Shown here: positions 52,922 through 63,870 of the stretch, piece by piece
Numbering within the stretch: the stretch's first letter is position 1
Layout of the letters: each line of letters opens with the position of its first letter
NCBI RefSeq assembly: GCF_029871235.1
Contig: NZ_SSOM01000049.1
Location: 1 to 64,000 of the forward strand
Reading direction: 5' to 3'
Source of the DNA: Pseudomonas sp. BN411
GTDB taxonomy: Bacteria > Pseudomonadota > Gammaproteobacteria > Pseudomonadales > Pseudomonadaceae
Length of the DNA: 64,000 nucleotides
Made by a program: the position numbers and the translations under genes
Notes under the pieces: model-generated
Told to the model about the DNA's origin: nothing
The model's database searches: none
Seen by the model: the letters and a program-made list of their open reading frames with translations, nothing else

Positions 52922-53048
52922 CGCGACACTCCCGAAAATGGTTTCCGTGACCTTGGTCAGTTCTGGATATTAACAGAGGCTCTGAAGCCGCCAATTGCAA
53001 GAGTTTGACAGCGTGTTGCGTTCCGGTAGTATGGCGCCCCGCGCAAGC

Positions 53049-53138
53049 GGAGGTGTGGCCGAGTGGTTTAAGGCAGCGGTCTTGAAAACCGCCGAAGGGG
53101 AGACTCTTCCGTGAGTTCGAATCTCACCGCCTCCGCCA
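53049..53138 (+). tRNA. tRNA-Ser(UGA)
   Basis: 90-nt class II tRNA. The acceptor stem GGAGGTG pairs with CGCCTCC, the anticodon loop is CTTGAAA (anticodon TGA), a long variable arm follows, the T-arm carries GTTCGAATC, and CCA is encoded. The integrase gene begins its 3' end 123 bp downstream, so this tRNA is the likely integration target of the neighbouring element. Confidence 0.95.
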
Positions 53139-53173
53139 TCTAACTCATTGATTTCAAAGGAAAAATATTCCTG

Positions 53174-53214
53174 AAAACGCCAAATGGGAGCGTTTTGGGA
53201 ACACTTTGGGAACA
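53174..53214 (+). repeat. Repeats beside tRNA-Ser, putative integrase arm sites
   Basis: Between the tRNA and int: an inverted repeat AAAACGC-N9-GCGTTTT (53174-53196), and a tandem direct repeat TTTGGGAACA at 53194-53203 and 53205-53214 with an 11-bp period. Position and helical spacing suit binding sites for the tyrosine recombinase or its directionality factor. Confidence 0.45.
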
Positions 53215-53220
53215 ATAGAC

Positions 53221-53255
53221 CACTGGGGGCCTTCTCGACAGAGAGGCCCCCAGTG
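53221..53255. terminator. Hairpin after the integrase gene
   Basis: CACTGGGGGCC...GGCCCCCAGTG, extended by TCTC/GAGA around a 4-nt loop with one bulge. It follows the int stop by 6 bp. No good T-run on the minus strand, so termination efficiency is uncertain. Confidence 0.55.
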
Positions 53256-53260
53256 TCGTT

Positions 53261-54427
53261 TCAGAGGTCCAGCGCGCGGTTCAGCATGCCCACGATGTCG
53301 GGGCCGTCCTTGCTGATGAATTTGGCGTAGTGCTTGAAGACCATGGCTGTGGAACTGTGCCCCAGCTGGTCGGCGATCCACTCTGGTGAGGCCACGCTGC
53401 TGCTGAGGATCTGGCTGGCGAAGGTGTGTCGGCACTGATTCGGGCCGCGATAGCGCACACCGGCCTTCTTCAGGTGACTCTTCCACCAGCCGTTACGCAG
53501 GTTGTCCGAGGTCGAATAGGGCTGGCCGGTACCGCCGTTGTGGAAGACAAACCGCACCTTCGGTCGCCGGATTGTCCGGTTATCTCGCTCCGTCACCTCG
53601 ATCTCTACCGGTTTCAGGTTACCTGTCAGTTTTACCTGCGCCTGAAGTGCTCTGAGCGCTGGGGCGAGGAGGCGCACCTCTCGCGTTGAGCGGCGCGTCT
53701 TGGTGACCTTGTACTTGCTCCGCACCCTGGCCCGCCGGAAAAGGACGGTGCCGGCGACCAGGTCCACGTCCTCCCAGGCCAGCGAGATCGCCTCCGAAAC
53801 CCTCGGCCCCGTCCAGATCATGAACTGTGCAAGGTTCAGCTCCTGGGCGCGATCTGACTCCGTGCTAAGGATCAGATCGATCTCCTCCCTGGTGAAAGGA
53901 TCGGGGTCGTCCGAGTCCGGCAGCGATACCACGATGCCGTCTGTTGGGTCGTGCGCTGATCTGTTCCTGGTGCGATAGAGACGGAAGACCTGCCGCACGA
54001 TGCTCAGAATCTCGCGCACGGTCTTGTTATGCAGCTTTGGCATCAGCGTGCCCTGGATCCATACCTGCAGGTCCAGGTGGTCGATCTGGTCGGCGTGGAC
54101 GTGGCCCCAGCGTGGCCGAACGTGGTGCTCGATCCGGCTCTCGTGACTGCGGATGCCCGAGGCAGCCATCTGGTTGCGCTTGATGCCCAGCCAGAGGTCG
54201 ATGTAGTGGCCAAAGGTGTTGGTCTGGATCCTGGTCGAATCCGGGAAGTGCCGGGCATAGCTGAACGTTCCGGCCTCGATCTCGTACTGAATGACGCCGA
54301 CTATGCGCTCGGCGTTGGCAATGTTTGCTGGTGTGGCGGCGCCGGGAATTGGCTCCCGGCAAAGCTCGCCCTCGTATCGGAAGTAGATGCGGATACTGTT
54401 GCCGCGAACCTCGACGCCCGCTGACAT
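53261..54427 (-). CDS. int: Tyrosine-recombinase integrase (DUF3596-type N-terminus)
   Basis: Site-specific recombinase of 388 residues, pointing toward the tRNA target. The first ~30 residues (VEVRGNSIRIYFRYEGELCRE) resemble the arm-binding DUF3596 domain of phage integrases. A SAM-like core-binding domain spans about 75-165. Catalytic residues: Arg in TGPRVSEA (about 208), Arg-His in QCRHTFAS (about 333), His in LGHSS and nucleophile Tyr in FKHYAKF (about 365). The first His of the usual HxxR box is replaced by Asn/Gln context, as in many phage relatives. It appears intact and functional. Confidence 0.93.
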   Translation of the reverse strand: MSAGVEVRGNSIRIYFRYEGELCREPIPGAATPANIANAERIVGVIQYEIEAGTFSYARHFPDSTRIQTNTFGHYIDLWLGIKRNQMAASGIRSHESRIEHHVRPRWGHVHADQIDHLDLQVWIQGTLMPKLHNKTVREILSIVRQVFRLYRTRNRSAHDPTDGIVVSLPDSDDPDPFTREEIDLILSTESDRAQELNLAQFMIWTGPRVSEAISLAWEDVDLVAGTVLFRRARVRSKYKVTKTRRSTREVRLLAPALRALQAQVKLTGNLKPVEIEVTERDNRTIRRPKVRFVFHNGGTGQPYSTSDNLRNGWWKSHLKKAGVRYRGPNQCRHTFASQILSSSVASPEWIADQLGHSSTAMVFKHYAKFISKDGPDIVGMLNRALDL

Positions 54428-54518
54428 AACACTCTCAATCCTCTGCTGCGTGTAAATCGGGAAGCCATTGGTAGCCCAACTGGCTGGTGGATGCTGTCAG
54501 CTCCTGCTGAATACAGCG

Positions 54519-57320
54519 CTAGAGCGAGCTGAACGTCCAACACTTCACCGTCCCCGGTCGCGCCGACATCGGGTTGCGCAGGGCATGGTGGCTGCGCACC
54601 GCGCTGTCCACTGCCTTGCTGGCGCCGAGGAACTTACGCGACTGGCTGTTGCGCAGCACCTCGCGAAGGGTGCCGACGTTGGCCAGTTGCTGGCGGTGCT
54701 CGCTGGCGCGCTGGACGAACTCGTTGAGGTTGATGGCGATCAGTTTCGGGTTCTTGCTGTGGTTCACCACCGGGCCGTCGTCCAGGGACTCCAGGTACTC
54801 GAACACCTCCCAGAACTCCGCCACAGCCGGGTGATCGGCGCTGACGGCGGACTGGCGCTCCAGGGCCATGGCCGCAAGGCAAAGGCGGGTCTGGTTGACC
54901 TGGTGCTCGCTCAGCTTCACCACCTGACGCAGGCAATCCAGGCTGGCCAGGAGCTGGGCGTGGTTCTTGATGATCCGCTCGATGCGGATTTGCCCTCGTA
55001 GCCTGTTGCCGCAGTGACTACAGGCGGCGTTCTCATCCGCGCTGGGGAAGTGCTGACCGCAGGCGAAGCAGCGCGTGTGCATGTGCCGCAGGCGGGTGTC
55101 GTGCGCCTGCAGGCACTCGGCGAAGCATTCCAGCACCTGGGCCTCGTGCTTCACCGCGCGCAGCAGGAAGTGGCACAGCCGATCGCCGTCCAGGGCGTTG
55201 AGGTTGTCTGCCGCCGCAATGCTCTCGTCGGTGGTCGTGGGGCGAACGAAGTGCAGCTTGCAGATACGGGTGAGGATCGCCTCAGAGGCACTGACAGGGG
55301 CGTTCTGGCTGATGACGATGGTGCCGCGAAAAGGCGGCTCGTAGGTTTCGTTGCCGGCAGTCTTCATGCCCCGGGTACGCAGCGTTCCACCGCCATAGAA
55401 GTCCTTCAGCTCGTCCCAGTCGAAGGACTTCAGGTGCAGCCGGTCTGGCTCGTTGCGGTCGGCCTCGATCAGAACCACCGGCATTCCGGCGACCTGGCCC
55501 ATCAAGCGGGAGCGCCCCGCGACAGATGATTTCGACGGGTCGAAACCCTCATAGCCAGCACGGCCCAGCAGCTTCCAGAGGAACATGAGCAAGGTGGATT
55601 TGCCGGCGCCGGCCTCGCCTGTCATTTCCAGGAAGGGGAAGGTCTGCCAGCGGGCGCGGATCTGCTCGGCGAACAGCGAGGCGAAGAAGAAGGTCAGCGC
55701 CACCACGCCCTGGGCGCCGAAGCAGGTCCAGAGCAGCCGTAGCCACTCCTCGTCGTAGCGTTTCGAATCCCGCTCTGGGCGAATGACGATGGATTTCTGC
55801 AGGCTCTTCAGGCGCAGCTTGCCGAACTCGAAGAAGTCCTCCGCGTTGACCTGGTTCACCACGCCATTGCGCACGGCCACATCGCCGAACACATAGCAGC
55901 CGTGCTCCTTGCTGTAGCCCACGTAGTCGATGGTCTCGACGGTTTTCAGGCCGTAGAGCTGGTCCTTCATGATCTTGTCCAACTGCTGGCCGCTGCCGGT
56001 GAACACGGCGCCGGCGGCCATGCTCAGCAGGCGCTTTTTGAACTCGCTGGCCGCCGCCACCTGGGCGCCGGTGAAGGTGTTCTTTACGCTGGGGCCGTCG
56101 TGGGGGAAGTCCACGCGGAAGTAGTACCAGGACTCGTCGGTGATCTCGTTGCGCTGGAAGTACAGCGCTTCGGCATAGCAGTTGGCGATTTCCGTCACGC
56201 AGCCCGATTCGCGCAGGGCCTTGGCTTCCCTCTGCTTGTCGTTGAGTAGCTTGTCTTCGTGGTGCTCGCTTTTCAGGAGGGAGTCCTTCGCTTTCTTGTA
56301 CTTGTCGTCATCCAGCTTGAACCAGTACAGGCGCCGCTCGAAACCGAAGTGGAACTCGTGCCGTTTGTCCCGCTCGTGCATCAGTAGGCCCTTCTCAGCG
56401 GCGCTCTGGGCCAGCAGCAGGGCGCCGTGGTGGCGGGCCTCCTCGAGGGCGCGCTGGCGCAGGTCGGCTCGTTTCTCCTCGTCGCTCTCGAAGCTCCAGC
56501 GCTGGTGCAGGTCATTCCAGTCCACCTTGCGGCCGTCTGGCTGGGGTACTTGCGCCGCGTCGCAGGCATAGCCCAGCTCGCGCGCCTGCCGCACCCACTT
56601 CTTCGTGTAGCGGTGCGCCCCGGGTTCGTTGTCCAGCGCCCAGACCAGCTTCGGCAGCTTGCCGCCGCGGTTGCGTGCCAGGGCCTTGAGGGACTCTTCA
56701 GGGAAAGCGTTCGACGACAGCGCAGCCACGGCCGCTATGCCGTGGTGGAGCAGGGCGATGGCGTCGAAAATGCCCTCGACAATCCAGAGCTCCTTCACCT
56801 CAAACAGATCCACGCAGGGCGGGCACCACCACACGCCCTTGTAGCTGGCCCCGGGCTTGAAGCGCGCTTTCTGCTTGCCGAAGCGGTGGGGTCGGTCGAT
56901 CAGCCGTTCCCAATAGCCGCCTTTCTCCAGGGCGAAGCGCACCGTGGCTGAGCCTTCGCCCAGCTCGCGGGACCAGAAATGCTCCTGGCTGAACCAGCCC
57001 TCGATCAGCTCCAGGCGAAAGCCCCGGGCGAACTCCAGGTAGGCGCGGGCGGTGGCGTTGGGTTGCTGGTCCGTCGCCGGTACCCGGTCGCTCCAGTCGT
57101 CAAACAGATCCTCGTACAGCTCCTTCACGTGCCACTGCTGGCCGCACTTGCTCTCGCGGCCGCAGTGCACCGTCCAGGGCGAGTCGGACCGGCAGTAGAG
57201 CTCCCGCTTCCCGCAGGCCGGGCAGGTGCCCTTGCGCAGGTACAGCGTGCCCGTGATCGCCTGCAGGCCGTAGTCAGCCTGCAGGCGCTGTAGAAGCTCG
57301 CTGCGCAGTGCATCTCTCAT
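54519..57320 (-). CDS. Toprim primase/helicase (P4-alpha-like replication protein)
   Basis: 933-residue replication protein. An N-terminal zinc ribbon (CPAC...C...C, residues 33-59), a Toprim nucleotidyl-transfer core (ELWIVEGIFDAIALL, about 176-190, then ALDNEPGAHRYTKK), a central linker, and a P-loop helicase-like domain with Walker A GEAGAGKSTL (about 568-577). A second zinc finger follows (CFACGQHF...CSHC, about 750-770). The arrangement fits primase/helicases of phage satellites and integrated islands rather than DnaG. It overlaps the next small gene by 4 bp and is the largest gene of the element. Autonomous replication after excision is inferred. Confidence 0.82.
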   Translation of the reverse strand: MRDALRSELLQRLQADYGLQAITGTLYLRKGTCPACGKRELYCRSDSPWTVHCGRESKCGQQWHVKELYEDLFDDWSDRVPATDQQPNATARAYLEFARGFRLELIEGWFSQEHFWSRELGEGSATVRFALEKGGYWERLIDRPHRFGKQKARFKPGASYKGVWWCPPCVDLFEVKELWIVEGIFDAIALLHHGIAAVAALSSNAFPEESLKALARNRGGKLPKLVWALDNEPGAHRYTKKWVRQARELGYACDAAQVPQPDGRKVDWNDLHQRWSFESDEEKRADLRQRALEEARHHGALLLAQSAAEKGLLMHERDKRHEFHFGFERRLYWFKLDDDKYKKAKDSLLKSEHHEDKLLNDKQREAKALRESGCVTEIANCYAEALYFQRNEITDESWYYFRVDFPHDGPSVKNTFTGAQVAAASEFKKRLLSMAAGAVFTGSGQQLDKIMKDQLYGLKTVETIDYVGYSKEHGCYVFGDVAVRNGVVNQVNAEDFFEFGKLRLKSLQKSIVIRPERDSKRYDEEWLRLLWTCFGAQGVVALTFFFASLFAEQIRARWQTFPFLEMTGEAGAGKSTLLMFLWKLLGRAGYEGFDPSKSSVAGRSRLMGQVAGMPVVLIEADRNEPDRLHLKSFDWDELKDFYGGGTLRTRGMKTAGNETYEPPFRGTIVISQNAPVSASEAILTRICKLHFVRPTTTDESIAAADNLNALDGDRLCHFLLRAVKHEAQVLECFAECLQAHDTRLRHMHTRCFACGQHFPSADENAACSHCGNRLRGQIRIERIIKNHAQLLASLDCLRQVVKLSEHQVNQTRLCLAAMALERQSAVSADHPAVAEFWEVFEYLESLDDGPVVNHSKNPKLIAINLNEFVQRASEHRQQLANVGTLREVLRNSQSRKFLGASKAVDSAVRSHHALRNPMSARPGTVKCWTFSSL

Positions 57321-57559
57321 CTGCTTGGCCCCAATGCGCGTACGGCGTCTCTGGCCGCCTGTAGCGTGCGGGAGAGGGCCGCCAGTGCTGGGTAGTCGTC
57401 CAGGATGCGACGGGTGCGGATCTTCGCCGGTACCGTGCGGTAGCGGTCAGCGAACCACTGCAACTGAATCGAATGCTCGTACTGCGCCACCAGAAAGCGG
57501 TGGTAGGCGCGCACCTGCTTGGGTGTGAGCTCCAGGTGCAGATTGACGGTGTGGGTCAT
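57317..57559 (-). CDS. Hypothetical protein
   Basis: 80 residues from an ATG with an AAGGAG site; the stop overlaps the primase start (ATGA), so the two are translationally coupled. Highly basic and helical (LTPKQVRAYHRFLVAQYEHS..., RTVPAKIRTRRILDDYPALA). No family recognised. Position suggests a replication accessory. Confidence 0.65.
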   Translation of the reverse strand: MTHTVNLHLELTPKQVRAYHRFLVAQYEHSIQLQWFADRYRTVPAKIRTRRILDDYPALAALSRTLQAARDAVRALGPSR

Positions 57560-57622
57560 GCGGATCTCCTTGCGCTGGGCGTAGCTCACCCAAACCCATG
57601 GCAATGGGCGGGCGGAATGGGC

Positions 57623-57985
57623 TCAGGCGTGTCGGGTGAGAGTGGCGGGGCGTTGGTCCAGCAGGCGCTGGGGCAGGAGGCGCAGCGGGATGGGGAAGCG
57701 CAGGTTGTTTCGGTAGTCGATCAGGTAGGCCACTGTGGCATCCGGCTCGGCGGCCCAGTCGATGCCAAGCCATTGCGGTTCCTGCCATTGGCGGAACTCA
57801 TTCCAGGCCCGCTGACTGAGTTGCTGCGCCAGAAACAGCGGCACCTCCAGCGCGGTGCAGAGGTGATGCACGCAGTTGTCGTACAGCAGGTCTGCATCGC
57901 CCAGATAGTGCGCCTTGTGCCGGCGCAAATAGGCGAGGGCGGCAACCTGCATGCTGGTGCGGTAGTCGAGGGTATCCATGTTCAT
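57623..57985 (-). CDS. Hypothetical protein
   Basis: 120 residues with a good GGAGG site before the ATG at 57985. Helical N-terminal half with several His/Cys (YLRRHKAHYLGDADLLYDNCVHHLC), no clear metal motif. No family recognised. It lies between the Ogr-like gene (2 bp upstream) and the primase-coupled gene, so it is part of the same leftward operon. Confidence 0.65.
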   Translation of the reverse strand: MNMDTLDYRTSMQVAALAYLRRHKAHYLGDADLLYDNCVHHLCTALEVPLFLAQQLSQRAWNEFRQWQEPQWLGIDWAAEPDATVAYLIDYRNNLRFPIPLRLLPQRLLDQRPATLTRHA

Positions 57986-57987
57986 GA

Positions 57988-58275
57988 CTAAGCCTCCAGT
58001 AGGGAATCCAACAGATCCAATTGGTCGGTCTTGGTGGCGGACATCATCGCGGCTACGCGCAATGCCCTGTCCGCAAGGGGTAGCTGCACGGCCGGGTTGG
58101 CCATGCCGCTGGGACTGAGCTCGTGGGTCATTTCAAACTGCGCCCGCACGCTCCAGCCGCAACTCTCGTTGCGGCACTGCAGGTAGGCCACCCGCAAGAA
58201 GATGTGCGTGCCTTCGCTGGTGCGAATACGCATGCGGCTGTGGCAATGCGGGCAAACGAGTTTGTACGTGCTCAC
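57988..58275 (-). CDS. Ogr/Delta-type zinc-finger transcriptional activator
   Basis: 95 residues if started at the GTG at 58275, which has a GGAG site. The zinc finger reads CPHCHSRMRIR ... YLQCRNESCGWSV, i.e. CxxC-X~22-CxxxxC, the pattern of P2 Ogr and satellite P4 Delta proteins that turn on late phage promoters with the alpha subunit of RNA polymerase. In a satellite such a protein would sense or drive helper-phage late genes. The frame upstream of 58275 belongs to a different reading of the preceding gene. Confidence 0.75.
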   Translation of the reverse strand: MSTYKLVCPHCHSRMRIRTSEGTHIFLRVAYLQCRNESCGWSVRAQFEMTHELSPSGMANPAVQLPLADRALRVAAMMSATKTDQLDLLDSLLEA

Positions 58276-58277
58276 TG

Positions 58278-58556
58278 TCACTCCTGGGTATTGCAGGTGG
58301 CGAGCACCACGCGCGCTGGCGTCGGTGCCTTCCCCAGCAGGCGCTCGTTCCAACGCGAGAGGAAATCGTTTGGCAGCTCGATCACTTGGCCGTTGTCCTC
58401 GCAGTGCGGGTTGAAACCAGCCTGGGTGAGGCAGTGGGCGATCAGCAGCAGCAAGCTGGATTGGCCAGCACCGCTGGAGCCGCTGATTTCGATCCTGATG
58501 TCCTCGCGTACCGCCATTTCTGCGTGGTGCAGATTCGGGTTGTGGTTTACGTCCAT
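58278..58556 (-). CDS. Small protein with degenerate Walker A motif
   Basis: 92 residues. After DIRIEISGSSGAGQSSLLLLIAHCL (about 19-43) the layout is exactly that of a P-loop NTPase start, but the invariant Lys is Gln (GAGQSS). The rest is too short for a full NTPase fold. Homologous phage genes with an intact GKT/GKS probably exist, but I cannot check. It ends 2 bp before the Ogr-like gene. May bind nucleotide weakly, or have lost the function. Confidence 0.6.
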   Translation of the reverse strand: MDVNHNPNLHHAEMAVREDIRIEISGSSGAGQSSLLLLIAHCLTQAGFNPHCEDNGQVIELPNDFLSRWNERLLGKAPTPARVVLATCNTQE

Positions 58557-58606
58557 GAAACACCCCTATGGATGGTTGAACTACGGGGCCGCCAGTCGGC
58601 CCCTGG

Positions 58607-58789
58607 TTACTTCTGTTGCACCAGGACCAGCGCACGGCCACGCCCTGGTGCTCGATCCGCGTGCTTGCGCAACGCCTGCTTGGCCAGCCACTCGGCCACC
58701 TGCTGAATGCTCTCCAGCCCCTGCTGCTGGCGAACCTGTTCCAGGAGCTCCAATTGATCAGGGGTGAAGGTGAGGGTTTGGTCTGGCAT
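58607..58789 (-). CDS. Small hypothetical protein, ribbon-helix-helix-like
   Basis: 60 residues: a short strand (QTLTFTPDQLELLEQVR) then two helices (ESIQQVAEWLAKQALRKHAD) resembling Arc/CopG-type DNA-binding proteins, with a basic tail. Probably a small regulator of the element. Family uncertain. Confidence 0.5.
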   Translation of the reverse strand: MPDQTLTFTPDQLELLEQVRQQQGLESIQQVAEWLAKQALRKHADRAPGRGRALVLVQQK

Positions 58790-58817
58790 CTCTTCGGCTG
58801 CTCGTGTGGGCCTGCTC

Positions 58818-59006
58818 TCAGGCGCGGGCCTGGGGGATGCTGGCGCTGTCCAGCACGGCTGTGGCTTCGCGCATCACCATCTCGCGCAGCAGGGTGGCGA
58901 GCTGCTCGCCCTTGTAGTTGGCCAGCGCCTTGATCAGGTCGTGCTCGTAGTCGTCGAAGCGCAGCACAACGCGGTTGTCGCGGACGCGGCGAGGGTCTGG
59001 ATACAT
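58818..59006 (-). CDS. Small ribbon-helix-helix-like protein
   Basis: 62 residues: RVRDNRVVLRFDDYEHDLIKALANYKGEQLATLLREMVMREA has the strand-helix-helix pattern of CopG/MobC-like proteins. It follows the gp16-like gene by 12 bp in the same leftward operon. Target unknown. Confidence 0.6.
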   Translation of the reverse strand: MYPDPRRVRDNRVVLRFDDYEHDLIKALANYKGEQLATLLREMVMREATAVLDSASIPQARA

Positions 59007-59018
59007 GGCAGTCGTCCC

Positions 59019-59246
59019 TTACTGATTGGCCGGTGTGGGCGAGGAGGGAGAGGCGTTTTCGCCTTCCTTGATGCCGAGCAGAACTGCGGCGCGGTGGGCT
59101 TCGCCGCGCTGGCCTTTCTTTCGCCCGTTCAGCAGGTCGCTGACCAGGTTCTTGTTCAGGCTATGGAGGCGGGAGAACTGGGCGAGGCTCATGCCCTTGC
59201 GGTCCAGAACCGCACGGGCTTGCTCGGGTGAAAGCAGCGTGGGCAT
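59019..59246 (-). CDS. BcepMu gp16-family phage-associated HTH protein
   Basis: 75 residues with a helix-turn-helix (GMSLAQFSRLHSLNKNLVSDLLNGRKKGQRGEAHRAAVLLGI) very like the BcepMu gp16 family, small early DNA-binding proteins near phage repressors. The disordered Ser/Pro tail is expected. First gene of the leftward element operon and divergent from the CI-like repressor, the usual place for a Cro/early regulator. Confidence 0.78.
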   Translation of the reverse strand: MPTLLSPEQARAVLDRKGMSLAQFSRLHSLNKNLVSDLLNGRKKGQRGEAHRAAVLLGIKEGENASPSSPTPANQ

Positions 59247-59743: not shown

Positions 59744-60328
59744 ATGGAAGTATTTTTCTTTCTCGCCATTCTTATTGGCTTCATCTGGGCTGTGCTTGGC
59801 AGTCGCGATCAAGCTCGGACACTGGAGGCTGGAGAGCCGGTGGGGAGCACTTGGCACCATATGGTCCAAATCCTGAAGCGAGGTGTGGGACATCCGGAGG
59901 AGAAAACGCTAGAGGTCGAGCAGCCCGCTAAACCCCCTATGCCTTCGCCCCAAAAGCCTTTCCGTCCATTGACCAAGCAGCAGCGCAAACGGTTGAAACT
60001 AAAAGAGAGAAACCCTCTACCGAAGTTCCTCCATCAACCCCCATCGCGCCAACCCGAGGCCAAGAAAGAGAAAACGACTCGGGCAATTCAAAGAGGCTGG
60101 AGCATAGGGACGGTTGAGTTCCTCTATGAGGATGCGGAAGGAGATATTAGCCACCGCCAGGTAACAGTTCATTCGGTCACCTCGATATACATCAAAGGTG
60201 AATGCCACACCCGTCAGGCGGAGCGAACCTTTCGAATTGACCGCGTCATTGGTGATATTACAGATTGCGACACAGGCGAAATGTCGGCACCCCAGAAGTG
60301 GGCTAGGAAGCTTCAGCGACAAAACTGA
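59744..60328 (+). CDS. Membrane-anchored protein with WYL-like C-terminal domain
   Basis: 194 residues. An N-terminal TM helix (VFFFLAILIGFIWAVLG) is followed by a long basic, Pro/Lys-rich linker (about 60-115) and a C-terminal beta-rich domain of about 75 residues. The pattern VEFLYEDAEG...R.VTVHSV...YIKGECH then ERTFRIDRV is strongly reminiscent of WYL domains, which bind ligands or nucleic acid and occur in anti-phage regulators. It lacks the usual HTH. An AGGAGG site precedes the ATG. First cargo gene after the repressor; function unknown. Confidence 0.6.
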   Translation: MEVFFFLAILIGFIWAVLGSRDQARTLEAGEPVGSTWHHMVQILKRGVGHPEEKTLEVEQPAKPPMPSPQKPFRPLTKQQRKRLKLKERNPLPKFLHQPPSRQPEAKKEKTTRAIQRGWSIGTVEFLYEDAEGDISHRQVTVHSVTSIYIKGECHTRQAERTFRIDRVIGDITDCDTGEMSAPQKWARKLQRQN

Positions 60329-60360: not shown

Positions 60361-60996
60361 TTATTTTCCTGCGTAGCTGAGACGGCGGCGTGACAATTCT
60401 TGGGCGATTGCCCCCCAAGATTCCCGCGAGCCTTTGAAATTGCATCCAGGGGGAGCCGCTGCGGCGGCTGGCAGGTAGGGGACAGCAATGCTCTTAAGGC
60501 GAGACTGGGCCTTGTTGCCCAAGGCGACGACTAGTGCCCTTGAGAAGAGTGCAATTTGTGGTTTCAGATAGCTCGCCGTGCAAGCGCGCCAGGCAGACGC
60601 CGGAACATTTCCACCTTCGATACTGGCTGAGCAAAGCACCGACTCTGTCATCCAGACCTTTCTGAGCTGCTCATCAAAGGTGAGCGAAGGAAAGCATTGA
60701 TCGAGAATCCACCGGACATTCCGGTGGAAAAGGTCTTTCCCATCCCTCATGCATCTGTAGGTGTGCTGAAGCGTCGTCTCAAGGCCAGTGTGAACCTCAC
60801 CCAAATGTGGATCTCCGGGTTCGGCGAAGACCAGCACGAGTTCCACTTCAGTGGGGGAGCCCGTTGCACCGAGATAACCTCTCGGAACGTGCCCATTCTC
60901 AGGGACCCACCGCATGCAGGTGCACGCACCGGAAAAATGGGCACAAGGGGCGTACGCCGGGGCAAGCAAGCGCATAACTTCGTTGCAAGGCTTCAT
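60361..60996 (-). CDS. Divergent uracil-DNA-glycosylase-fold-like protein with Cys cluster
   Basis: 211 residues. The N-terminal cysteines C18-x6-C25-x-C27 (APCAHFSGACTCMRW) could bind Zn or an Fe-S cluster, as family 4/5 glycosylases do. The layout then follows the UDG superfamily: a motif-A-like strand-loop VLVFAEPGDPH (54-64), a central VLCSAS strand (about 119), a Rossmann-like ALVVALGNKAQSRL (about 153) and a Pro-rich loop AAPPGCNF (about 180) where true UDGs have HPS. The catalytic Asp/Asn and His are therefore not canonical. It is the second gene of a two-gene leftward operon, 21 bp after its partner. Assignment by fold pattern only. Confidence 0.5.
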   Translation of the reverse strand: MKPCNEVMRLLAPAYAPCAHFSGACTCMRWVPENGHVPRGYLGATGSPTEVELVLVFAEPGDPHLGEVHTGLETTLQHTYRCMRDGKDLFHRNVRWILDQCFPSLTFDEQLRKVWMTESVLCSASIEGGNVPASAWRACTASYLKPQIALFSRALVVALGNKAQSRLKSIAVPYLPAAAAAPPGCNFKGSRESWGAIAQELSRRRLSYAGK

Positions 60997-61017
60997 GGTT
61001 AAGAAATGCCTCCGTCT

Positions 61018-61620
61018 TTACGCTCGTGAGCGTTGATCGCCAGATGTACAAATCATCCTGATCTGCTCACCTAGTGCGCGCGCCTTAACCTCCGACCAAC
61101 CCCGTGCAAAATGATCGACGTAAATCACCTCTGCATTCAGAGACAGTCCCTTTAGGCACGCTTCGGCGTCACGACCATGCGCGACAATGAGCTGTGGCTG
61201 AATTGTGTTTAGCAGGAACTCAAAAGGATCCGAGTCGCGGTCTGCCAGGGCCAGTTCGCCGAGTGTCGAAGTTGCCGTAGCGTAGGTGTTGGTTTCCAGG
61301 CAGCGGTACGGCGCTGCGGACAACGTCACCCATTCGAGTACCCTGCGTGTATTGCTAATGGGATTCCGCCGAGTCTTCCCTGGCTTCAGTGGCCTCGTTT
61401 GGCGCTCCTTGAGGTAGGCATCCATCCAGGCTGCTTTGTTGAAGCCGATACCAGGTCTCCAAAACGACCAGAAATCCTCTTCCATCTCGGTAGCCGGGTT
61501 AGCTCCAACCAGGATCACTTGGCAGGTCAGGGGCGAGCCGTCGCAGATGAAGGGGCGCAGTCTGGAAGGTCGGCCAATCAGGCGGGTTAGTCCTGCTTCG
61601 AACTCCGCGAGGTCGCTCAT
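61018..61620 (-). CDS. Divergent uracil-DNA-glycosylase-fold-like protein (TDG/Mug-like motif)
   Basis: 200 residues, AGGAG site before the ATG. QVILVGANPATEMEEDFWSFW (34-54) recalls the GINPG motif-A region of TDG/Mug enzymes, followed by a GFN segment. LETNTYATAT (about 108-117), LIVAHGRDAEACL (about 144-156) and VIYVDHFARGWS (about 167-178, a His in the place of the HPS loop) follow in the order expected of the superfamily. No homolog of known function is recognised. First gene of the operon with 60361-60996. Nucleobase excision or recognition of modified phage DNA is inference. Confidence 0.55.
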   Translation of the reverse strand: MSDLAEFEAGLTRLIGRPSRLRPFICDGSPLTCQVILVGANPATEMEEDFWSFWRPGIGFNKAAWMDAYLKERQTRPLKPGKTRRNPISNTRRVLEWVTLSAAPYRCLETNTYATATSTLGELALADRDSDPFEFLLNTIQPQLIVAHGRDAEACLKGLSLNAEVIYVDHFARGWSEVKARALGEQIRMICTSGDQRSRA

Positions 61621-62024: not shown

Positions 62025-62642
62025 ATGAATAGAGTTCAGGTCTCTGCGCTATTGCTGATTTCTTCGGCAATTGTTTCAGGGTGCGCGACTATTGTTGATG
62101 GAAAAACACAGGCTGTAACTTTCAACTCCGAGCCACAAGGTGCGGAGGTTTCTGTAGCGGGTCGTGTAATGGGGACGACTCCCGTAACTGCTCAGGTTGA
62201 AAGGGATAAAAACTTGGCAGTTACTTTTAGCAAGGATGGCTATAAGCAATATACGACGCAGATGGGAACTACCACCAACAGCTTCTTCTGGGGAAATATT
62301 GTGCTGGGTGGCTTGATCGGCTCAACTGTAGATGCGTCTACGGGCGCCATGTATGAATACTCACCCAATCAGTACTTTGTAACCCTCAAGTCCGATGCTC
62401 CGCTGGCAGTCACTACGTCCAAGCCGCGTCAAATTAAGGAAATAGTGGTTGGCGCGGGTGATGAATTGCGTCACGAACTGGCAGCCGGTGGTGGTGAAAA
62501 TACCAATGCAATTCTTGCGGTGGTTGGGGTCGGTAAGGCCGACGCTCCTTCAGCCGTCAAAGCACTCGCAAAGATGGCTCAGAGTCAAACTAATGACCTT
62601 GAATTTGCGGAGTCGATAATCGCTCTGTATGAAGTTCAATGA
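62025..62642 (+). CDS. PEGA-domain lipoprotein
   Basis: 205 residues with a lipoprotein signal (VSALLLISSAIVSGC, lipidated Cys about residue 19), so it is probably outer-membrane anchored. A PEGA-like repeat follows (TFNSEPQGAEVSVAGRVMGTTPVTAQV), then a small glycine-rich hydrophobic segment (FFWGNIVLGGLIGSTVDASTGAMYEY) typical of this lipoprotein group. The C-terminal 60 residues are helical. Codon use is more AT-rich than the core genes. Role unknown; could belong to the element or to an older island. Confidence 0.75.
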   Translation: MNRVQVSALLLISSAIVSGCATIVDGKTQAVTFNSEPQGAEVSVAGRVMGTTPVTAQVERDKNLAVTFSKDGYKQYTTQMGTTTNSFFWGNIVLGGLIGSTVDASTGAMYEYSPNQYFVTLKSDAPLAVTTSKPRQIKEIVVGAGDELRHELAAGGGENTNAILAVVGVGKADAPSAVKALAKMAQSQTNDLEFAESIIALYEVQ

Positions 62643-62700: not shown

Positions 62701-63870
62701 CTATGATGCTTTGAGTTCCGCCAGTGTCTGCTGTGCTTTCGTTATTTTGTTGTCCAACTCAATTAGCAGTTTTTTGTTGCTCTGCAATTCATTGAGTGCA
62801 GATATGTATGAGTCCCAAGTGATGCTGCCTACTTTGGTGACTTCCTCTATGCCGAAATTGGATTTTCTCGAATCGAATTCAATTTTTCGGCCTTCATCGT
62901 TTCTCATAGAGACTGGGCGTAACACGATTGTTGTGGTTTTTGCCTTCTTCCACGCGGTTGTTTCAGTGAAGTCGTTGATTAGATGATCTGCTGGATCTAT
63001 AGATATTTTCTCGACTCGGGTTTCACCGGGATTTAATCCGGCTTCGAGTTTGACGGAAGCGTACGTTCCTTCTCTTATGGGGGTGTTTGATTCATCTAGA
63101 TAGACATAAGCATGCAGTGTTATGGAATCGATGGTCTTCGTGGATTTGTTGGTGACGGCAGTGTCGAATTCAATGTAGTTGCTGATATGTTCCGTTGTTA
63201 TTGATTTTCGGGGATTGACCGTTACCGGTGCTATATCAATAAAGTCGTTTGGTTGAATTGCCGTTTTTCCAGAGCGAACTGAGGAAATAAAGCTAGATAC
63301 TTTCGGCTCCAAAACTTGCAGTTCAGCAGTTAAGGTGGAATTTCTCTTGAGAATCTCTGATTTTTTTGAAGTTGAAGTGCTAATCGTGTTGTTAGCGTCG
63401 CGGTAGGCTAAGAACTGCTCAGAGGTTTTCAAGCCTACTTGCTCGGCCTGATGTTGATAGTATGGATTTCGAACGATATCGAAGACATATTTGTCGATAT
63501 GGCTAAAGGTGTCGACGAAATCGTAGATGGTTCGGCTTTCTTCGGTGCCGCCTTTAACTGTTTGGTTTGTGTATCTAATATTTTGGTAGGCAAATTCATC
63601 CGAACCTTTGGCTCGTACTACAACCTTTGCCTCGCAGGATCTTAAGCCTGCATCAGTGTCCGCCTTGAGCGTGACGATTTCTGTAACTGAGATATCGGAG
63701 ATAAAGTCCATTGCCCCTGGTGGAAGTTTACTTTCCAGATTCGAGCGGAAATCGGATGAGATCCGAGAGGTAGCTTCCTTTGAGTCACACTCTATCGCGC
63801 TTTGGATACATCCGGTGAGGCTAAGTGGGGCTATGAAAATTGCCAGGGTCTTTAGGGAAAGCTCTTTCAT
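62701..63870 (-). CDS. Hypothetical lipoprotein with coiled-coil ends
   Basis: 389 residues. Signal with lipobox LSLTGC (Cys about 21). The mature protein has an N-terminal alpha/beta region, a predicted coiled coil (about 165-200), a beta-sandwich-like middle (ISNYIEFDTAVTNKSTKTIDSITLHAYVYLD, a pattern seen in extracellular Ig-like or FxLYD-type domains) and a second coiled coil at the C-terminus (ELQSNKKLLIELDNKITKAQQTLAEL). AT-rich relative to the core. Converges on the PEGA lipoprotein gene. No family recognised. Confidence 0.65.
   Translation of the reverse strand: MKELSLKTLAIFIAPLSLTGCIQSAIECDSKEATSRISSDFRSNLESKLPPGAMDFISDISVTEIVTLKADTDAGLRSCEAKVVVRAKGSDEFAYQNIRYTNQTVKGGTEESRTIYDFVDTFSHIDKYVFDIVRNPYYQHQAEQVGLKTSEQFLAYRDANNTISTSTSKKSEILKRNSTLTAELQVLEPKVSSFISSVRSGKTAIQPNDFIDIAPVTVNPRKSITTEHISNYIEFDTAVTNKSTKTIDSITLHAYVYLDESNTPIREGTYASVKLEAGLNPGETRVEKISIDPADHLINDFTETTAWKKAKTTTIVLRPVSMRNDEGRKIEFDSRKSNFGIEEVTKVGSITWDSYISALNELQSNKKLLIELDNKITKAQQTLAELKAS

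Follow-up and report, generated by a model that had tools for sequence, protein, structure and literature searches.

Defence by cutting modified bases out of phage DNA is a recently recognised form of bacterial immunity, and the literature consulted describes few members of it. In the portions of the reports consulted, Brig1 is described as excising alpha-glucosyl-hydroxymethylcytosine (PMC11078745), and Brig3 as excising hydroxymethylcytosine in partnership with BapA, a deglucosylase (PMC13160076). Brig2, which acts on modified thymine and is found in Pseudomonas, and Dag1 and Dag2, which act on modified guanine, are antiviral glycosylases of the Getz et al. 2025 preprint (doi 10.1101/2025.10.29.685425) as cited in the sections consulted of PMC13160076 and PMC13216743. 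The subject here is a pair of adjacent genes within the first 64,000 nucleotides of contig NZ_SSOM01000049.1 of Pseudomonas sp. BN411 (the window). Their products, termed P1 and P2 (names unrelated to phage P2), are read as two divergent DNA glycosylases of the uracil-DNA glycosylase (UDG) superfamily, serving as anti-phage cargo between gpD and the repressor of a Citexvirus-like prophage, and this reading is given a probability of about 0.5. No description of two UDG-superfamily defence genes side by side was found in the literature consulted, which did not extend to the preprint by Getz and colleagues that might contain one.

P1 (61620-61018, minus strand) is a UDG-superfamily protein of 200 amino acids and P2 (60996-60361, minus strand) is one of 211 amino acids with a family-4-like character. 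The two open reading frames (ORFs) are as originally predicted. Their description as divergent and back to back needs correction, as they lie in tandem on one strand, P1 followed by P2 after a 21-bp gap. A purine-rich stretch resembling a ribosome-binding site is visible by eye 5′ of both genes. From this layout the pair could form an operon; the genes are co-carried and probably co-transcribed. GC content stands at 53-57% in this stretch and at 59-66% in the part of the phage backbone on its left (53000-58999). Relatives of P1 and P2 in other genera share approximately 29-55% identity across most of their length. Among the closest P1 copies, those of Stutzerimonas kunmingensis and P. marginalis differ with a synonymous divergence (dS) of 0.64 and a nonsynonymous divergence (dN) of 0.09, and the copies of S. 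kunmingensis and genome G162 with a dS of 0.16 and a dN of 0.05; synonymous sites are saturated for every P1 pair involving the window copy. Due to the presence of relatives across genera and the mainly synonymous changes among the closest P1 copies, P1 and P2 are not considered chance ORFs.

Both proteins fit the α/β/α fold of UDG in AlphaFold2 (AF2) models searched with Foldseek and VIA-align, and all 50 matches listed per table for either protein are UDG-superfamily enzyme entries. The P1 model has a predicted local distance difference test score (pLDDT) of 86.2 and a predicted template modelling score (pTM) of 0.84; the corresponding values for P2 are 66.9 and 0.74. Against the Pfam family PF03167, P1 reaches an E-value of only 0.088, and one of the four scanned P1 relatives passes the cut-off (Paracoccus, 27.9 bits). 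P2 matches the family with an E-value of 5.7e-5 and 23.7 bits (cut-off 24.3), and in the whole-genome run it scored 24.3 bits and was counted as over the cut-off. The fold originally proposed for both proteins is thus borne out by structure prediction of each, by fold search and by PF03167. The comparison of the P1 and P2 profiles is weak (E 0.15), so the homology of the two rests on the fold and on PF03167.

P1 contains a GxNPA motif A (N41), an LETN strand (N111), a VAHG strand (H148), a late loop with H170, and the pair Cys26/Cys33. The motif-A Asn41 is conserved in 12/12 aligned members, Asn111 in the next core strand in 11/12 and His170 in 10/12. The HG of the third core strand is invariant, as are Cys26, Cys33 and His148. 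The motif A of TDG and MUG is GINPG, and its Asn is the catalytic residue in TDG, MUG and SMUG1. In P1 the final Gly of this motif is replaced by Ala, with the Asn retained in all 12 members and the Pro in 8/12. As the motif-A Asn of P1 is of the TDG/MUG/SMUG1 catalytic type, the claim of the original prediction that canonical catalytic residues are lacking fails for this protein. The aligned P1 members hold no conserved four-Cys set. UdgX entries are among the best P1 matches, with a Foldseek E-value of 2.7e-4 to UdgX of M. smegmatis.

In P2 the position of motif A is occupied by AEPGDP, followed by FHxN and by an APPG late loop where motif B would be expected. Glu59 and His91 are invariant among aligned members, and C18, C25, C122 and C139 are present in 7/7, which substantiates the Cys cluster noted earlier in one of the two proteins. 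C122 and C139 lie within a strand-plus-Cys segment aligned to the family-4 UDG 1ui0 (E 0.0043), and for this reason the cluster is probably an iron-sulfur (Fe-S) site. Judged from the residue pattern, the four Cys probably resemble the Fe-S ligand set of family 4 and tie P2 to a known UDG family. Family-4 enzymes carry GE[AP]PG as motif A and an HPS-type motif B; in the alignments P2 has AEPGDP and APPG instead, and the APPG loop resembles no HPS-type motif B known to us.

By its gene content, the element that hosts the pair is a prophage of the phage P2 family (Citexvirus-like), with P1 and P2 in its gpD-repressor interval. Its likely attachment site is a tRNA-Ser (53049..53138, plus strand), and the annotation of phage Sirocco (Citexvirus) places a tRNA-Ser at the end of the phage. 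A tyrosine integrase (53261..54427, minus strand) adjoins this tRNA and is followed by a phage DNA primase (54519..57320, minus strand; phrog_1139, 1236.7 bits). At approximately 73% identity over 90-92%, the primase DNA matches six records of P. aeruginosa phages, with 15 records matched overall. Three distinct phages among the six records (Dobby, with two of them, Sirocco and D14A) are classified in Peduoviridae, genus Citexvirus. An ORF with an Ogr/Delta zinc finger (57988..58641, minus strand; PF04606, 8.9e-17), which we take to mark the late-gene activator of P2-family phages, precedes a control region with a small helix-turn-helix (HTH) protein (59019..59246, minus strand; phrog_925, 6.4e-23) and a CI-like phage repressor (59299..59679, plus strand; HTH_3, 4.1e-8; phrog_8, 9.9e-15). 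The originally proposed cargo position after the repressor of an integrated element is supported. Next on the contig, past the window, come a PDDEXK_4 nuclease, gpD, a tape measure gene and, by eye, more tail genes; the contig ends in a gene resembling an insertion sequence (by eye). No second copy of the tRNA-Ser of at least 12 bases was found on the contig, and no right-hand attachment repeat in C19:53000-72500 (C19 being this contig) or on the contig as a whole.

Between gpD and the control genes, the four related phage records compared differ in content. In Dobby and Sirocco this interval contains an HTH regulator (LuxR-type by Pfam in Sirocco) and one other gene; in D14A, a cytosine methyltransferase and two other genes, one annotated as ParB-like; and in OQ658368, in which the repressor is unannotated, a 1.4-kb gene of no known function and smaller genes. 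Because the content of the interval differs between related phages, P1 and P2 are placed in a cargo slot of the type found in P2-like phages. The sections consulted of PMC9122126 describe small, high-turnover loci between conserved genes of such phages that carry anti-phage systems; the E. coli slot described there sits elsewhere in the phage genome, beside cos.

To judge by sequence motifs and profiles, a third UDG-superfamily gene is very probably present in the prophage. It (C19:72982-73641, plus strand; given also as C19:72928-73641, L078:9928-10641) lies outside the window amid tail-type genes of the minus strand and encodes the motifs GFNPGG...ASNL...LCCGN...LPHMSRY. Its product matches the P1 profile with an hhalign E-value of 1.1e-6 and the P2 profile weakly (E 0.064). 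Pfam gave no match for this protein at E 0.1 and none for two of its relatives; a Roseibium relative passes PF03167 (29.6 bits). Among Pseudomonadaceae it was detected in 6/296 genomes at E 0.001, near-full-length in just one beyond that of the window.

The distribution of P1 and P2 is sparse. All genome counts include the window's own genome. In the genus (18 genomes) either gene occurs solely in that genome, and at the level of the class P1 occurs in 1/369 genomes, again the window's own. Among Pseudomonadaceae, P1 is found in 7/298 genomes and P2 in 3/298; a match to P2 in a would-be fourth genome (G025) was rejected as antisense to a peptidase-like gene. Common housekeeping homologs and folds other than UDG, the two outcomes that the original prediction had named as speaking against it, were thus not what was found. 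In the family of Paraburkholderia humisilvae (Burkholderiaceae), P2 matches occur in 8/299 genomes. Four are full-length (G788 and G811 among them sharing one neighbourhood), two are broken (G745 and G958), one (G935) enters other sequence after 154 positions and one (G710) is marginal (22.3 bits, 30 positions). A scan of genome contigs with a single peptide pattern gave at least nine loci. At three loci (L057, L058 and L059) the P2 copies are truncated or broken, which fits fast-turnover cargo. The annotated phage collection contained no match to P1 or P2. A viral match to P2 (L009) was discarded as 15 residues antisense to a 1521-amino-acid ORF. The reading of L040 as P1 fused to a long N-terminal domain was also rejected, its upstream frame resembling GC-rich antisense by eye.

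Elsewhere, some relatives of P1 are found near defence genes. On a B. contaminans plasmid one lies just 3′ of SngB-SngC (Shango; E 2e-173 and 2.3e-269), and in S. stutzeri one lies approximately 3 kb from ZorA2/ZorB2. On a Paraburkholderia aromaticivorans plasmid (L073:4618-6444), DUF4326, a P1 relative and a NADAR gene follow each other in one direction. PADLOC had no match for P1 or P2 themselves; among 10 chosen neighbour proteins, six match its defence models and four do not, namely three L036 proteins and, next to P1 in B. glumae, a gene annotated as superinfection exclusion B. By eye, late-type genes surround P1 on one viral contig, where they are of tail type, and P2 on two contigs sharing the same P2 gene. 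On one of these (L065:7920-9389), terminase-like genes (by eye), small and large, lie on either side of the P2 relative, and a 209-amino-acid gene comes after it. Two tyrosine-recombinase-like genes (by eye), one near the P. marginalis P1 (L033:8900-9580) and one near the P2 of G793 (L056:11657-12460), are 52% identical and perhaps indicate a common carrier element.

The predicted fold, the conserved active-site-type residues, the location in mobile cargo, the rarity and the recurring linkage described below directly support P1 and P2 as UDG-superfamily mobile cargo. All beyond this is inferred, and a role in defence is probable from the context. In the favoured mechanism each enzyme would flip out and excise a modified, non-host base of incoming phage DNA, and the resulting abasic sites would block phage replication, as with Brig1-type enzymes. 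P1, with its TDG/MUG-like motif A and no four-Cys set, and P2, family-4-like and probably Fe-S, would differ in base specificity, and together with the third UDG-like gene they would broaden the range of phages attacked. Several points weigh against this account. A UDG fold by itself proves neither glycosylase activity nor target, the usual motif B is absent from P2, and the P2 model, which rests on four sequences that include one viral protein twice, is of moderate confidence. In some P1 copies residues have been lost (H170 in 2/12, N111 in 1/12, Pro42 in 4/12). The 10 neighbours submitted to PADLOC were hand-chosen, with four unmatched and no baseline of random genes. If the account is true, phages keep such enzymes for use against rival phages, here as two adjacent UDG-type genes and one distant. 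The proteins would then be candidate glycosylases with new base specificities, of use in the study of the modified-DNA arms race and in the detection of modified bases.

An unlikely extension is a dual-glycosylase module in which the TDG/MUG-like and the Fe-S family-4-like protein would cooperate or act sequentially on the same hypermodified phage DNA, each of the three UDG-type enzymes of the prophage having its own modified base. A stricter reading, in which modified phage DNA is the target of an obligate two-subunit glycosylase, the two-subunit form being that of the original prediction, or else of a sensor-plus-enzyme pair, is improbable. The linkage on which it draws stands: P1 lies beside P2, on the same strand and within 0.9 kb, in 3/3 Pseudomonadaceae genomes with P2; the probability that all three would carry P1 by chance is 8e-6 if genomes are assumed independent. 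The order is P1 then P2 in the window, P2 then P1 approximately 0.2 kb apart in S. kunmingensis (G163), and P2, a 199-amino-acid gene and P1 over approximately 0.8 kb in G242. As the window and Stutzerimonas copies share 54-55% identity for both P1 and P2 and the order is reversed, the pair either survived rearrangement or formed on two occasions. The two loci in Stutzerimonas are close relatives with common flanks and count as one, which leaves only two independent arrangements. The obligate partnership is weakened by the occurrence of each gene on its own. None of the seven further P1 genomes tested (G162, G222, G159, G234, P. marginalis, Paraburkholderia humisilvae and a Burkholderiales metagenome-assembled genome (MAG)) has P2. 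P2 is without P1 in 5/7 tested Burkholderiaceae-family P2 genomes, the two with broken P2 (G745 and G958) having only a partial, weaker P1 match elsewhere in the genome, and also on a Cupriavidus plasmid. Three of the four tested P1 plasmid records lack P2, and the fourth, from B. contaminans, has the two genes 35 kb apart. Because each gene mostly occurs alone, stacked, separately acting enzymes are favoured over one two-subunit enzyme, and P1 and P2 probably each act alone.

The Burkholderiales MAG copy (L035:9959-11284) bears on both sides of this question. Its P1 domain continues, with no intervening stop codon, into another UDG-like domain (GINPGG), a joining that favours two subunits; the partner is another UDG type, and as assembled the copy has a frameshift near its start, with N111 and H170 lost from the P1 domain. 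A relative of this second UDG-like domain is encoded on an Azospirillum plasmid (L072:5031-5717; PF03167, E 4.5e-4) by a UDG-like gene that adjoins a Tn3-family transposase gene, with an uncharacterised 265-amino-acid gene 13 bp after it. The 199-amino-acid gene of G242 (L023:9197-9796) is absent in G163 and has a weak PADLOC match to JetA (3.3e-4). It was considered, with the viral 209-amino-acid gene, as a shared third component, and this was rejected as the two gave no mutual blastp match at E 1. A Paracoccus gene after P1, considered as a P2 relative, turned out to be a different protein.

Improbable to the same degree is the explanation that P1 and P2 are ordinary accessory repair glycosylases for uracil, deaminated or damaged bases, which would travel on mobile elements and aid the element or its host under stress. 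The family-4-like Fe-S pattern of P2, the repair UDGs that are the closest structures and the TDG/MUG-like motif A of P1 are consistent with it. Mobile elements can also carry repair genes, as in B. glumae, where a Y-family polymerase gene, followed by imuA, lies approximately 1.3 kb from P1. However, the host already has another UDG-superfamily gene elsewhere (66.5 bits), and the very sparse distribution, the lack of an HPS-type motif B in P2 and the variable prophage cargo slot argue against repair. Least probable is that one or both proteins are non-catalytic UDG-fold DNA binders (sensors of damage or modification, UdgX-like covalent binders, or prophage regulators or counter-defence factors), for although UdgX is among the best P1 matches, P2 has AEPGDP instead of GEAPG and APPG as motif B, residues are missing from some P1 copies and both genes occur among late-type viral genes (by eye), the invariance of N41 in P1 and of E59 and H91 in P2 is unusual in an active site that has decayed and the UdgX His loop was not identified.

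The other genes near the pair are treated as context rather than as parts of the system. The convergent neighbour (59744..60328, plus strand) encodes 194 amino acids with a C-terminal WYL-like domain (PF13280, E 1.9e-4) and, by eye, a hydrophobic stretch at the N-terminus. The same cargo interval contains a PEGA-domain gene (62025..62642, plus strand; PF08308, 2.1e-9), a lipoprotein-like gene (62701..63870, minus strand; by eye, with no Pfam family over the cut-off) and, from the last bases of the window, the PDDEXK_4 nuclease (C19:63951-65090), which matches the candidate defence family PDC-S26 of PADLOC (E 9e-102).

Compared with known enzymes, P1 matches the fold of M. smegmatis UdgX and differs from it in that the covalent-His loop of UdgX was not identified and a conserved four-Cys set is absent. 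From TDG, MUG and SMUG1 it is set apart by a motif A ending in A rather than G, by the additional invariant Cys26, Cys33 and His148, and by a late loop of HF/HL where those enzymes have MPS, NPS or HPS. P2 shares with the family-4 enzymes (UDGa; T. thermophilus 1ui0, S. tokodaii 4zby) the fold, the strand-plus-Cys segment and the four Cys. It departs from them in its AEPGDP motif A, in lacking an HPS-type motif B and in the spacing of the N-terminal Cys pair, Cx6-7C instead of the CxxC of family 4. No Brig entry is listed by VIA-align or Foldseek, which excludes nothing, and any of P1, P2 and the third protein may be a member of the Brig2, Dag1 or Dag2 families. With the Brig-type systems P1 and P2 share a UDG-superfamily fold and a location in a defence island or mobile element. 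Like Brig1 and Brig3, they are UDG-superfamily proteins within accessory or defence-island DNA. In the portion of its report consulted, Brig1 also has the family-4 UDG of S. tokodaii as its best structural match, and Brig3, in the corresponding portion of its own, is likewise encoded in a two-gene operon. The partner of Brig3 is the deglucosylase BapA and not a second UDG, whereas here two unlike UDG-fold proteins stand side by side.
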